From Pyrofollis japonicus (lineage in GTDB: Archaea > Thermoproteota > Thermoprotei_A > Sulfolobales > Pyrodictiaceae): DNA of 64,000 bases. Both the position numbers and the translations under genes were made by a program. The DNA is taken from positions 1,355,126-1,419,125 of the forward strand of contig NZ_AP028634.1 of the NCBI RefSeq assembly GCF_033097485.1, read 5' to 3'. This document shows, piece after piece, positions 53,512-58,786 of the stretch. Each line of letters opens with the position of its first letter. The stretch's first letter is position 1. Under the pieces are notes generated by a model that was given only the letters and a program-made list of their open reading frames with translations, did no database searches and was not told where the DNA came from.

Positions 53512-53691
53512 TCATTTAGCTTCTTTACCCATGGATAAAAGCTTCATCTTATACCGGTACGCAACATACTTATCTTCGGGAGAGAATCGAGGAGGATGCG
53601 GCACCACTAAGGGGCCGCCACATACGGGGCACTTATCTCTGCGCAGCGTGTATCTGCCGCACACACTACATTTCCTCATAAGCCACTGCAC
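53512..53691 (-). CDS. nop10: H/ACA RNP protein Nop10
   Basis: Subunit of the archaeal H/ACA pseudouridylation RNP, 59 residues: MQWLMRKCSVCGRYTLRRDKCPVCGG zinc ribbon (C-x2-C twice) then PHPPRFSPEDKYVAYR. The ATG at 53700 overlaps the GAGGTGATG ribosome binding site, so the GTG at 53691 is chosen. Follows aIF2-alpha by about 39 bp, the conserved order. Confidence 0.94.
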   Translation of the reverse strand: MQWLMRKCSVCGRYTLRRDKCPVCGGPLVVPHPPRFSPEDKYVAYRYKMKLLSMGKEAK

Positions 53692-53730
53692 GATCATCAC
53701 CTCTCATTGATTATTGAAACTATCGGATTT

Positions 53731-54534
53731 TTACCTGCGTTCGCGGCTAAATGCAAATTCAACTCCGAGAGTTTTTGCCTCTGCTTTTGCTTTCTCTAAC
53801 GCATCTTCAAGCGCTTTTTCTATTGTCTTGTAATCATATGCCTCTAGTTCGAGTTTATACCTCGGCGCACCTATCGTATATAGCCTAGCACTTATATCCT
53901 TTGAATATTTTAGAAGATTGTCTTTAAGTGCCAACAAGACTTTTTTAACTCTCTCAACACCATCGCCTGCCCGCGAGGTCGCAGTTATTATACCTTCTAC
54001 TTTCACTCTCTTGACATGCACATGTCGCTTCACTTCCTCGAGAATTGGGTTTATCCATTCATCCGGTATGTTTGCGGCCTTCAGTGCTTCGGGACCGCGG
54101 ATGACTGCCTCCTCGAAAGCAGTCATGAGGTCTCCGTAGGCTTCCTCTAGTTTTCTGCCCACAATTTCATAGGCTTCTTCAAGTGTTCTACCCATTTTTT
54201 GAGCAATTATCTCTAATATTTTTAGGGCTTTTTGTTCACGCTTCCACTGCGCCATCTTTCGTTTTCTTTCACTATCTGTTACTCTCTTGAGGGAAACATC
54301 AACTGTTTTCCTTTTCCGATGAACTCTTATTACTTTCACAACCACTTTTTGGCCCGGCTTAACAACATCATGTATGCTTCTAACCCACCGAGAAGCTACC
54401 TCGCTCCAAGGAAGGTATGCCTCGATGCCACCATACTCGTCAAGGGTTAAATAGGCGCCGTAATCGTATACTTCTTTTACTGTTGCTACAACTAGCTCGC
54501 CTACATCAGGTAACTCTTTCTTCTTTATCACCAT
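53731..54534 (-). CDS. Translation initiation factor aIF2 alpha subunit
   Basis: Alpha subunit of the heterotrimeric aIF2 that brings initiator tRNA to the 30S. 267 residues: S1 domain (about 12-85, VVATVKEVYDYGAYLTLDEYGGIEAYLPWSEVASRWV), helical middle (90-170) and C-terminal alpha/beta domain ending in VEFAFSRERR. AAGGTGATAAATC precedes the ATG. In the operon aIF2-alpha-nop10 downstream of L44e-S27e. Confidence 0.96.
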   Translation of the reverse strand: MVIKKKELPDVGELVVATVKEVYDYGAYLTLDEYGGIEAYLPWSEVASRWVRSIHDVVKPGQKVVVKVIRVHRKRKTVDVSLKRVTDSERKRKMAQWKREQKALKILEIIAQKMGRTLEEAYEIVGRKLEEAYGDLMTAFEEAVIRGPEALKAANIPDEWINPILEEVKRHVHVKRVKVEGIITATSRAGDGVERVKKVLLALKDNLLKYSKDISARLYTIGAPRYKLELEAYDYKTIEKALEDALEKAKAEAKTLGVEFAFSRERR

Positions 54535-54723: not shown

Positions 54724-54924
54724 TTATCCAAGAACACGCACTACTTGGCCAAGTATCTTTGCCTTTCCACCGGTTGGTTCTACTAGTTGGGCCCCGCACA
54801 CTAGACAGCGCACTGGGAAGGTCGCATGACTAAATACTACTTGTTCATTGCCACATACAGGGCATCGGACTAAGAGGAACCTACTTCTGGGCTGAGGTAC
54901 TAGAATCTTTAGACGTTTCACCAT
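54724..54924 (-). CDS. rps27e: Ribosomal protein eS27 (S27e)
   Basis: 30S zinc protein of 66 residues: [39 protein letters not shown] with C-x2-C pairs. Follows rpl44e by 7 bp. The next 190 bp to aIF2-alpha hold no gene; a weak C/D-like sequence there is noted under rejected items. Confidence 0.96.
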
Positions 54925-54931
54925 GTAGGTC

Positions 54932-55216
54932 TCACCTCACTTCGACGAGCTCTACCTTCTTAAGCCTAATACCTCTACGATGGAGTATATATCCACATTT
55001 TTGACACTTGAGCTTGAGTACAACCTTTTTGGTTACCTTAGCAAAGCGTTTTTGCTCTGGCTTTCTTTTGCTACCATAACCTTCCTGCTTTCTCCTATAT
55101 CTACGCTCACCTTCTGCTAAGCTGCGACGCTTCCCATGTTTATATATCATAACAGTATGTGGCGTATGTGTACGGCAACGCGGACAGTAAGTCACTATTA
55201 CCTTTGGTACCTTCAC
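54932..55216 (-). CDS. rpl44e: Ribosomal protein eL42 (L44e)
   Basis: 50S E-site protein, 94 residues: [25 protein letters not shown]..., then [30 protein letters not shown]. Both zinc pairs are present. A TATA-like AAATTTAAG at 55271-55279 on the minus strand could give the L44e-S27e pair its own promoter inside the larger cluster. Confidence 0.96.
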
Positions 55217-55281: not shown

Positions 55282-55758
55282 TTAGAGCCCTTTAGCCTCT
55301 ATGAACTTCTCTAACCCGGTATAAAGCGGCTCAGCAAACCCACCAAGTATGAGATGGACAGCCTTTTCTTTTTCAACACAAGCAATAGAGCCAGCCCGTC
55401 TCCGAATACCTCTTAGCGATGCATCCATGGTAAAGCGTATGAATAAACACTTATCTGAAGAGACTATCATCCCCATAAGATATTTTGAGACAATTTCCGA
55501 CTCTTGACGACCAAGCCCGGTTGCAGAATAAATGGCCTCTGACAAGAGCCTCAGTGCCTCTAGAACCATTTCTGCATATTTGCCCAGGATGCCGACATGA
55601 CCATAAGTATTCTTGTCCAGCAATGTCCTAGAAAATACTTGTCTAAACTCTTGAAAACCTGGCTCGATCTCCTTTAGACCCTTACCGTCTCTCATCATGG
55701 CGTTTATAGATTCAAGTACTATTTGAAGCCCAGTACTATTTATTGACAATCGAACCAC
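55282..55758 (-). CDS. Protein at the GINS position, candidate divergent Gins15/51
   Basis: 158 residues. No clear motif, but the gene sits between priS and rpl44e, exactly where crenarchaea (for instance Sulfolobus) keep Gins15, a subunit of the CMG-like helicase complex. Size fits (about 160-175). The helical first 110 residues match an A domain; the short beta-rich C-terminal stretch ([38 protein letters not shown]) could be a reduced B domain. Assignment by context only. Confidence 0.6.
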
Positions 55759-55778: not shown

Positions 55779-56906
55779 TTAGACAAGTAGTGCTAGGCCC
55801 TTACTCAAAAAGTATAAAGCAAGTGGAGCATCTAGGCGTGGTCTATCGTTTTTTCTAAAGCGTATACGGTTTCCGAGAATCCTTATCTGGGGGATATCTG
55901 CAAGTATCCTTACTCTTATCGGCTCTTCGTTAATGAATGGAGATAGTCTTGGCGTCATCCTGAATTTTTCAAGCTCTTCCTCGCTTAATGGTTTAACAGG
56001 CAATAGACTCTTACCGTGAAGGCTGAGAGGAGCACGAATAAGTCTTGATACATCTATTGAGACTTGCTCATCTATTTCCACCGATATATATTGTCGTGCC
56101 TCATGCTCTAGTTCCTCAAAAACCTCATCGTATTTTGACAAGTCTTTTTGTAACAATATTTTATTCGCGATACTCTTTAACTTTCTTTGGTGTGCAAGCC
56201 TATACATGATGCGCGCTATTCTACCCCTTATCCCAGCTTCGTTAAAAGATGGCAATATTGGCATAGGTTTGGATCGCGTGCTAAGCTTTGTCCAAGGCAT
56301 TAACGTCTTCTCATCAATATCCACGGCCTTTATATAGTTCACTATTTCTCTTCTAACATCACTAGAGCTGCGAGCAAGATCATGACTATCGTCTAGATAA
56401 GCAGTTACGTGGAATCCTCTATTACCAGAAAATTCTACTGATATACTATTCTTGTCTATTCCTAGCTCATAGACGAGTATGTCTTTTAGTATTATTGCCC
56501 TAAAAGCTGCTTTTTCAATACACTCGTCATCTACTAATTTAACTTTTTCATCATCAATGTTAATTTCAACAACTTTTTCTTTGCACTCCGGTAAATGGTC
56601 TGCATCTATATCGAATACTAGATCAGAGGAACGCCATCCTTTCTGATCCATAGATGGTGCTTCAGGCTCATTATATCTTGCAGAAGAGAAGTAGAAATGA
56701 CGAGGGGCCTTCTCTATGAGGAATTTCCTAATCTCTTCAATACTATGGAAAGACATGTGCCGTATGTAGCTCTTGCCGTGCCATGTTTGTGCGGCGAATT
56801 CTCTCAGCATAAAATCCTTTGGTATTATTGGCATAATTTTTCTGTAATATGTCCGGGTTATGTTTTCAAGAAAGCGTCTTGTTTTGACAAAGACGTCTTC
56901 AGGCAT
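55779..56906 (-). CDS. priS: DNA primase small (catalytic) subunit PriS
   Basis: AEP-family primase that makes replication primers with PriL. 375 residues: catalytic D99 and D101 in LVFDIDADH, FSGNRGFHV (158-166) for nucleotide binding, and Cys108/Cys128 near the zinc-knuckle site. Start ATG at 56906. The gene lies 60 bp after PCNA and 20 bp before the candidate GINS gene, in the replication-translation cluster. Confidence 0.95.
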   Translation of the reverse strand: MPEDVFVKTRRFLENITRTYYRKIMPIIPKDFMLREFAAQTWHGKSYIRHMSFHSIEEIRKFLIEKAPRHFYFSSARYNEPEAPSMDQKGWRSSDLVFDIDADHLPECKEKVVEINIDDEKVKLVDDECIEKAAFRAIILKDILVYELGIDKNSISVEFSGNRGFHVTAYLDDSHDLARSSSDVRREIVNYIKAVDIDEKTLMPWTKLSTRSKPMPILPSFNEAGIRGRIARIMYRLAHQRKLKSIANKILLQKDLSKYDEVFEELEHEARQYISVEIDEQVSIDVSRLIRAPLSLHGKSLLPVKPLSEEELEKFRMTPRLSPFINEEPIRVRILADIPQIRILGNRIRFRKNDRPRLDAPLALYFLSKGLALLV

Positions 56907-56966: not shown

Positions 56967-57719
56967 TTACTCTACGCGTGGAGCGATAAGGAAACTGAAT
57001 TTTGCTCCCTGAGGTATTTCGTGCTCTATTAGTGCTGGCATCTCGCTACTGAATCTTATTGTTATAGTATCGGCTACACGGGCTGCTCCCGATAAGTCAC
57101 TGAAATATTCTAGGGTATACATTGAGGCTTGTGTATCCTCAACGGTCATCTCCAATATGCTTCCACTCTCCATAGTGTATATAATCTCTGCTTCAGCTAA
57201 CTCGCTCGATGACTGTACCCTAAACTCGTTATCTGAAGCCACAAACTTTATGACATCGCCTACAAGTTCAACGTCCTTTATAGTATCTCTATAGACGTCG
57301 CTCATAACCTTAACATTAGCCTTAAATTCTAGCTCTGGTTCAGGTATTTCTTCGGTAGTTATGTCAAGAAGGGGGAGTGTAAATTCTCTATATCCTTTGC
57401 CAACGAATGCAAACGATATTGTGTTAGTATCGGCACGTATTTCGAGCTTATCTTCTTTACGTGCCCTTCGTAGAACCTTAGCAACGTCCTCGAGATTCAC
57501 TCCGAGCTGATACTCTTTATCAACCTCATATACTTCAAAGGATTCACGAGGAAAACTCATATCAAGTAATATTACATGCGAAGGATCCATAGCCCTAAAC
57601 CTAAAACCTTTTTCTGGGTCAACAACGAAGACGCCTTCCTCTATAACCTTCGATATTGCTGATACAAGGTAGCGCCACACTCTTGCGTCAAAGAAGACTA
57701 GCCTCAAACTGCTCCCCAA
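56967..57719 (-). CDS. pcn: Proliferating cell nuclear antigen (sliding clamp)
   Basis: Sliding clamp subunit, 250 residues: AISKVIEEGVFVVDPEKGFRFRAMDPSHVILLDMSFP, the interdomain region around residues 115-130, and the C-terminal FSSEMPALIEHEIPQGAKFSFLIAPRVE. Crenarchaea often have three PCNA genes forming a heterotrimer; only this one is in the window. A TATA-like CTTTTATGC lies about 40 bp upstream. Confidence 0.96.
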   Translation of the reverse strand: MGSSLRLVFFDARVWRYLVSAISKVIEEGVFVVDPEKGFRFRAMDPSHVILLDMSFPRESFEVYEVDKEYQLGVNLEDVAKVLRRARKEDKLEIRADTNTISFAFVGKGYREFTLPLLDITTEEIPEPELEFKANVKVMSDVYRDTIKDVELVGDVIKFVASDNEFRVQSSSELAEAEIIYTMESGSILEMTVEDTQASMYTLEYFSDLSGAARVADTITIRFSSEMPALIEHEIPQGAKFSFLIAPRVE

Positions 57720-57792: not shown

Positions 57793-58020
57793 CTATTTAC
57801 TGCTCTTATAGCATTCCTCCATAAGCAATCTAGATTCGCTTAAGCCAGCCTGTATAAGTCTATACATTCGCTCAATATAGGGTCTAGACGATACGTGGAT
57901 CGGCGTACGAAAGTACGCTTCTTCAACGTCTTCAAAGAGCTTTTTAAATAGCCTATGGAAGTACTCTACTTCGAAACAAAAGTCTCTATCGCTAATCATA
58001 CTCTCTCCACACATAGCCAC
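57793..58020 (-). CDS. Small helical protein of unknown function between TFS and PCNA
   Basis: 75 residues, or 68 from the Met at 57999 (then overlapping TFS by only 8 bp). Mostly helical with acidic and aromatic residues (FHRLFKKLFEDVEEAYFRTPIHV). No family recognised. The overlap with the TFS gene points to cotranscription, so it may aid transcription or replication, but nothing more can be said. Confidence 0.62.
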   Translation of the reverse strand: MAMCGESMISDRDFCFEVEYFHRLFKKLFEDVEEAYFRTPIHVSSRPYIERMYRLIQAGLSESRLLMEECYKSSK

Positions 58021-58336
58021 ATCTTACACATTTGAAGAACCTCGTAGGCGGCTCATCAGCTCTACGTGTTTGTACAACCCAGTAGTAAGCCTCATGATAT
58101 CCGCAGCGCGGGCACGTAACCCTTGTCTTCGGCATTGCTTCCCAGTTAATATCCTTAGGTATGACGACGAGCCTTTCTTTCTCACTATGTTCTATCTTCT
58201 GCTTAAGTACTAGGGATGAACCTCCTCCAGATGAGTCAACTTCCTCGGTATAGCCGCAGCTTGGACAAACCCACATGCGTTTCCCATTCACCGTTTTCAA
58301 GACCATTAGTGAGCCACACCGTGGACAGAATCTCAA
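57992..58336 (-). CDS. Transcript cleavage factor TFS
   Basis: TFIIS-like factor that rescues backtracked RNA polymerase. 114 residues with N-terminal ribbon C4, C7, C24, C27 and C-terminal ribbon C75, C78, C103, C106. The catalytic acidic hairpin is intact (D94-E95 in RRADEPPTRFFKC). An acidic Gly/Ser linker joins the two. Single TFS copy in this window. Confidence 0.95.
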   Translation of the reverse strand: MRFCPRCGSLMVLKTVNGKRMWVCPSCGYTEEVDSSGGGSSLVLKQKIEHSEKERLVVIPKDINWEAMPKTRVTCPRCGYHEAYYWVVQTRRADEPPTRFFKCVRCGYVWREYD

Positions 58337-58447: not shown

Positions 58448-58786
58448 CTATAAGCTATCCTTATAATTCTTTAATTTATCAGTGAGAGTACAGATCGATT
58501 CGAGAAAAACACTAATGCATTCTTTACATTTTGAAAAATAAGCATCAATTTCTACCGGCGTGAGGCATGTACGGGAAGCAAGGCGCGGAGGCCATATTAG
58601 GCGGATCTCTTTGAAAACACTTTGCCTAGATATTTCTGAAATAACCTCGTCCTCGCTACCTCCTATAAGGATATATTCTACGCGAAAAGGACCTCTAAAA
58701 ACTAATGCAACAACGTTATCATTGCGCTGTAAAGACTCACAGTTATGAATGAATAGGAGTCTAGCTTCTCTCTTCGCACTTAACAT
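58448..58786 (-). CDS. Protein of unknown function overlapping rpoL
   Basis: 112 residues, alpha/beta in pattern (ARLLFIHNCESLQRNDNVVALVFRGPFRVEYILIG, then helices). No family recognised. Several Cys but no clear metal motif. Its start overlaps the rpoL end by 26 bp, so it is in the RpoL operon. Start ATG at 58786. Confidence 0.62.
   Translation of the reverse strand: MLSAKREARLLFIHNCESLQRNDNVVALVFRGPFRVEYILIGGSEDEVISEISRQSVFKEIRLIWPPRLASRTCLTPVEIDAYFSKCKECISVFLESICTLTDKLKNYKDSL

Follow-up and report, generated by a model that had tools for sequence, protein, structure and literature searches.

Does the genome of Pyrofollis japonicus encode a Gins15 (Gins51) subunit of the archaeal GINS complex, and if so, is its gene the one that lies between the genes for the small primase subunit and ribosomal protein L44e? 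The window, that is the whole stretch of 64,000 nucleotides analysed here, comes from a genome assembled as a single contig of 2,005,174 bases with a completeness estimate of 99%. On the basis of gene order, protein size and a helical first part, the initial annotation had proposed that a divergent GINS subunit of the Gins15 type is hidden at this position by low similarity. The genes concerned, in the order of the locus, are the following.

57992..58336, minus strand: TFS (transcription factor S), upstream of PCNA, assigned by family model
56967..57719, minus strand: PCNA, assigned by Pfam/NCBIfam family models
55779..56906, minus strand: PriS, DNA primase small subunit, assigned by Pfam/NCBIfam family models
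55282..55758, minus strand: candidate gene, 158 aa, GTG start, very probably Gins15 (Gins51) in a diverged Pyrodictiaceae form
54932..55216, minus strand: L44e, ribosomal protein, assigned by family model
54724..54924, minus strand: S27e, ribosomal protein, assigned by family model
53731..54534, minus strand: aIF2-alpha, assigned by family model
53512..53700, minus strand: Nop10, assigned by family model

Family models thus identify every neighbour, and the order PCNA, PriS, candidate gene, L44e, S27e, aIF2-alpha, Nop10 is as initially read, with TFS preceding it, 20 bases between PriS and the candidate gene, and 65 bases between the latter and L44e. This is the crenarchaeal arrangement given in a 2008 study of 27 archaea, which describes a cluster of PCNA, PriS and Gins15 adjoining L44e, S27e, aIF2-alpha and Nop10, and judges the neighbourhood useful for spotting Gins homologues missed by PSI-BLAST (PMC2643942). 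Position alone is insufficient for an assignment, because the gene matching NF053564, the NCBIfam model of Gins15, does not lie beside L44e in several families of the order.

Two other frames of the same region deserve mention in their own right. The 75-aa frame at 57793-58020 (minus strand), between TFS and PCNA, is without a family match in Pfam/NCBIfam (weak Tim44 only), and has relatives in 17 loci (tblastn, E up to 1), 16 of them below 1e-3; judged by these relatives, it is a small conserved gene of an unnamed family. Relatives of a 112-aa frame at 58448-58786 (minus strand), which lies between TFS and an Rpb11-like gene and has zero Pfam/NCBIfam matches up to E 1, occur in L165, L167 and six loci of Pyrodictiaceae type, the latter at 22-40% identity.

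The initial annotation had recognised no motif, and the 158-aa protein has zero matches in Pfam and NCBIfam up to E 1, where no Gins15 or GINS model detects it, and zero among PDB sequences up to E 10. Such silence of the curated models, together with the finding that the gene before L44e is not Gins15 in some families, would suit an unrelated, lineage-specific protein that came to occupy the Gins15 slot by chance. NF053564 has a cut-off of 130 bits, which is passed in only 4 of the 58 genomes of the order, and therefore defines the model rather than the family. Searched singly against NCBIfam up to E 10, the 14 Pyrodictiaceae proteins of our alignment A1 gave one weak Gins15 match (E 0.044).

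The candidate is a real conserved gene. A search with the single protein over the 58 genomes gave matches at E below 1e-3 in 12 (its own and 11 others), all of them Pyrodictiaceae, at 24-36% identity. In every family genome where L44e was found (17 of 17), the interval between PriS and L44e holds a protein of 139-162 aa; G010, G018 and G019, also Pyrodictiaceae, stand outside this count, as the L44e match is absent there. The contig of G002 carries only the end of PriS, and G015 has about 300 bases between PriS and the slot protein. Fifteen of the 17 slot proteins are of the diverged type (A7); the two from genus g4 belong to the Pyrolobus type, and that of L036 reads the same as that of L166 (Pyrolobus sp.). 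The slot protein of G008 (L016, 978-1394) is short, at 139 aa, and seems to be without part of the B-domain strands, with both of the cysteines discussed below kept.

Evidence independent of position comes from profiles. Alignment A2 comprises nine slot proteins: one of the Pyrolobus type (L036) and eight that belong to other families of the order. Of 30 loci considered, 16 are from other families; in eight of these, PriS and L44e enclose a protein of suitable size, which entered A2, and L015, L024, L031, L034, L038, L040, L041 and L043 were excluded because L44e is preceded by a different gene or none was seen. NF053564 matches eight of the nine members, one over the cut-off (1e-50), six at 3e-16 to 1e-4 and one weakly (0.013), and does not match L042. 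The A2 profile reaches SsoGINS51 in the PDB (9moj) at 1.2e-19. Run over all six frames of the P. japonicus genome up to E 10, it has a sole match, the candidate gene, at E 0.0058 over profile positions 89-148, and the part matched is the C-terminal domain of the protein.

In the reverse search, the 15 diverged Pyrodictiaceae proteins were made into a profile and run over the 58 genomes; 21 of the 38 genomes of other families gave matches up to E 10. Fifteen of these 21 hit Gins15, in 14 genomes where NF053564 matches and in G045 at the gene in the PriS-L44e slot, and the six off target all have E above 0.003. All five other-family matches below 1e-3 lie on a Gins15 gene detected by NF053564: G024 (1.4e-8), G034 (2.7e-7), G039 (1.9e-6), G020 (7e-5) and G040 (3.3e-4). 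Among these, G039 alone passes the NF053564 cut-off, the others being at 8e-9 to 5e-10 and G034 at 1.7e-8. Inside the family, one off-target match occurred in G018 (E 3.6e-4), in a 437-aa frame. Since a genome search that ignores position returns the candidate gene alone, and the reverse search reaches Gins15 in other families, we consider chance occupation of the slot by an unrelated protein highly improbable.

Slot proteins of the f8 family also escape NF053564 or match it only at E 0.006. These proteins, L110 523-969 (G026), L114 965-1372 (G036), L118 519-950 (G055) and L042 914-1384 (G045), are further candidates for hidden Gins15.

The domains of the 158-aa protein, to which the following comparisons refer, are given below.

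55468..55737, minus strand: A domain, residues 8-97, helical in the predicted models; no sequence-profile support
within 55468..55737, minus strand: A-domain helices H10-24, H28-46, H49-52, H55-80 and H84-94 of the first model
55318..55461, minus strand: B domain, residues 100-147, from profile comparison and predicted model
minus strand: B-domain strands 104-109, 113-115, 118-120 and 125-129, helix 130-138 and strand 142-144 of the first model

When A1 was compared with A2 (hhalign), an E of 5.2e-9 and a probability of 95.9 were obtained over 65 columns in or just before the B domain, and 2.6e-8 once the Pyrolobus-type row was taken out of A2. As controls, reversed A2 gave 0.077 and the best of 100 column shuffles 0.23; against S27e and aIF2-alpha, A1 gave 0.41 and 0.16. 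With the B domain alone (15 against 25 sequences) the E is 2.9e-10, compared with 0.1 for the best of 50 shuffles, and by this measure the B domain is homologous to Gins15 B domains. For the A domain alone (15 against 25) the E of 0.032, at a probability of 1.6, is not significant though below 50 shuffles (best 0.26), and the comparison with the two Pyrolobus-type A domains was negative (E 0.12). The profile-profile check envisaged by the initial annotation hence came out in favour of Gins15 for the B domain and gave no signal for the A domain: sequence homology could be demonstrated for the former only, and assignment of the latter draws on fold, size and order. A PDB search with the profile of the 14 Pyrodictiaceae proteins gave unrelated matches only (best E 0.31); because this profile reached no solved structure, the sequence bridge to one runs only through the A2 profile of the other families.

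Structure prediction provides a second line of evidence. The input to the first model was restricted to the window protein and eight Pyrodictiaceae relatives, which keeps the test independent; it has a mean pLDDT of 85.6 and a pTM of 0.80, and consists of helices followed by the strands of a B domain. A second model, built with 31 relatives that include other families, has a pLDDT of 90.0 and the same elements; its source, A4, holds 33 rows from 80 named loci, with PriS directly upstream in nearly all, and L174 and L180 were removed beforehand because their frames look wrong or very odd. Both models have the A-B domain order anticipated for Gins15 and not the B-A order of Gins23, and the five helices predicted in residues 8-97 bear out the helical first part. 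GINS B domains are described as five strands and one helix (PMC2861644), a description that fits the second part of the model.

In a Foldseek search of the PDB with the first model, 9moj_A, from the Saccharolobus GINS tetramer and the same GINS51 chain that the A2 profile matches, ranked top (E 2.9e-4, probability 1.00, nearly full length), and ranks 2-9 are CMG or GINS entries throughout, each at E 0.04-0.15. VIA-align placed 9moj_A at Z 8.7 over 98 residues with an rmsd of 11.1, the next row being at 6.4. This Z is barely above 8, the value below which (for helical bundles, below about 13) a match may reflect only a common arrangement. With the second model 9moj_A was again top (Foldseek E 5.0e-4; VIA-align Z 8.8, 89 residues, rmsd 7.7), with GINS or replisome entries holding fewer of the leading places (ranks 1-4 and 7). 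A fold unlike GINS, which would have spoken against the initial proposal, was therefore not what the models gave: the predicted fold is GINS-like, with 9moj_A as its best PDB match. The poor whole-chain superposition (rmsd 7.7-11.1) arises because the two domains are placed differently, and we do not read it as structural identity of the whole protein. Taken alone, the B domain gives a good superposition, for example on 6xtx_A (Z 5.7, 1.7 A over 46 residues). The A-domain helices also match unrelated bundles (TetR regulators, Z up to 6.4), and the small B fold also matches the N-terminal domain of ribosomal protein L9 (2hbb, Z 4.9) and ribosome entries (6eri_AH, Z 5.2).

This unequal resemblance of the two domains leads us to ask whether only the B domain derives from Gins15, the A domain being a replaced or remodelled helical domain, so that RecJ/Cdc45 would still be docked through B and the core joined in another way. 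The gap between E 0.032 for A and 2.9e-10 for B points in that direction, as do the 0.12 against Pyrolobus-type A domains, the VIA alignments that start only at residue 44 or 55 of 9moj_A, and the fact that NF053564 still detects the Pyrolobus type, which belongs to Pyrodictiaceae as well (6e-12 in G012, 0.005 in G007). However, length and helical content are similar, the Foldseek match to 9moj_A is nearly full length at a probability of 1.00, and GINS51 is poorly conserved in general, with a reported 21.7% identity over the whole protein between the Sso and Tk sequences (PMC12035558). We regard a B-only ancestry as unlikely, and a strongly diverged Gins15 as the better account.

A clear Gins15 elsewhere in the genome would have argued against the candidate, and none was found. 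NF053564 gave nothing over the whole genome up to E 10, the A2 profile gave no second Gins15-like gene, and the 158-aa protein found, besides itself, one chance-level stretch with stops (E 0.18). PF05916, the helical model of GINS, matches one gene of the genome, at 382637-383218 (locus L205), which is not the candidate gene. That gene has the B-A order by our reading of its sequence, lies directly before MCM and is transcribed divergently from the gene for the RFC small subunit, and we assign it to Gins23 because of this order and its position beside MCM and the RFC small subunit; a second RFC-like gene adjoins it. As an observation on other genomes, G011, G014 and G016 of genus g2 (G016 is 69% complete) are without a PF05916 match at E below 1e-3, and their Gins23 may have diverged too. 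The search for RecJ/Cdc45 yielded four DHH-family genes in the P. japonicus genome. One of them, L209 823-1860 (genome match 1108355-1108684), codes for 345 aa, matches DHH weakly (E 2.4e-5) and may supply the RecJ/Cdc45 that partners GINS.

The B fold on its own could also be taken for that of a second Gins23-type subunit, or of a stand-alone PriS C-terminal domain fused to helices, given that the PriS C-terminus and GINS B domains are described as having a common fold (PMC2861644) and that the primase 1zt2_A is among the structural matches (Z 5.5). Against this stand the A-B order, the separate Gins23 and the profile comparison, in which Gins15 reached 5e-9 and neither 29 Gins23 proteins (E 0.54) nor 29 PriS C-termini (E 0.076) gave a significant result. 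We give this reading hardly any weight. All in all, profiles run both ways over genomes, the profile-profile E of 5.2e-9 and the fold match to 9moj_A agree with the original proposal of a divergent GINS, and we conclude with high confidence that the candidate gene encodes the Gins15 (Gins51) subunit.

One feature of the diverged proteins is a pair of cysteines in the B domain, at the following positions.

55447..55449, minus strand: Cys104, invariant in the 15 diverged relatives, at the start of the first B strand
55378..55380, minus strand: Cys127, likewise present in all 15 diverged relatives, within B strand 125-129, likely disulphide partner of Cys104

Both residues occur in 15 of 15 diverged Pyrodictiaceae proteins, being the sole cysteines in 12, and along with Tyr61 they form the only invariant columns. 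The pair is found in none of 25 other Gins15 or slot proteins, two of them of the Pyrolobus type and the rest from 23 of the 38 genomes of other families; among these, the proteins of G026, G036 and G055 align poorly. In the first model Cys104 is in the first B strand and Cys127 in the fourth, two strands that share one sheet in related domains (PMC2861644). Crenarchaea are reported to be disulphide-rich (PMC3177088), and Cys104-Cys127 is probably a heat-stabilising disulphide. No report of this protein or of the cysteine pair was found in the literature at title and abstract level, and arCOG supplements may list the protein.

From what is known of the family, two copies of Gins15 would join two of Gins23, encoded by the gene beside MCM, in a GINS tetramer, as reported for Saccharolobus with two GINS51 and two GINS23 (PMC12035558). 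The helical A domain would build the core of the tetramer, and the small B domain would extend the first domain of the RecJ/Cdc45 homologue by further strands. By the same reasoning GINS would hold primase, RecJ/Cdc45 and the MCM helicase together at the fork, and its role would be essential; for the Sulfolobus complex, interactions with MCM and with both subunits of primase are reported (PMC2643942). Nothing in our analysis suggests a role other than this ordinary one. The sequence is strongly diverged in the Pyrodictiaceae read, other than those of the Pyrolobus type, and what is new is confined to the diverged A domain and the lineage-specific cysteine pair; the family and the job are known. 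It is doubtful that the A domain of one Pyrodictiaceae branch was exchanged, or rebuilt until homology was lost, with the B domain kept and locked by the disulphide and the GINS core formed through an interface unlike those of the GINS complexes solved to date.

A diverged Gins15 explains the apparent gap in a Pyrodictiaceae genome that has Gins23 and MCM and is without a Gins15 detectable by the curated model. It supports the view that GINS is general in archaea and that absences can be divergence. A 2014 survey, in which homology searches for GINS failed in several groups, suspects that the homologues there are unknown or diverged (PMC3984812); the gene described here adds another well-supported case of diverged GINS. 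Our profile is ready for annotating the Pyrodictiaceae family, and the cysteine pair offers a testable candidate for a stabilising disulphide in a replication-fork protein.

One close known form is the Pyrolobus-type Gins15 of genus g4 (L036/L166, L104), which has the family, slot and size in common with the candidate protein. It matches NF053564 below the cut-off (5.8e-12 and 0.005), but is without the Cys104/Cys127 pair and (in G007 and G012) does not match the profile of the diverged relatives. The B domain also superposes on 3anw_A (Z 5.6, 2.1 A over 46 residues) and 5ghr_D (Z 5.8, 2.5 A over 48), in both of which the A domain is unmatched; we take 3anw_A, 5ghr and 5ghs to be Gins51 of Thermococcus kodakarensis, with the B domain in 5ghr and 5ghs. 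The PriS C-terminal domain resembles the candidate in its B fold (1zt2_A; PMC2861644), but not significantly at the profile level (E 0.076). In the f11 genomes, which are the four over the NF053564 cut-off, Gins15 lies between PriS and L44e in three of four, as it would here, although the three f11 proteins read are without the cysteine pair. SsoGINS51 of Saccharolobus solfataricus (9moj) differs in that NF053564 represents it and misses the candidate protein, with identity in the structural alignments at 11-16%; yet it has the same size of about 150 aa and the same succession of a helical A and then a B domain, and it is the best structural match of all.
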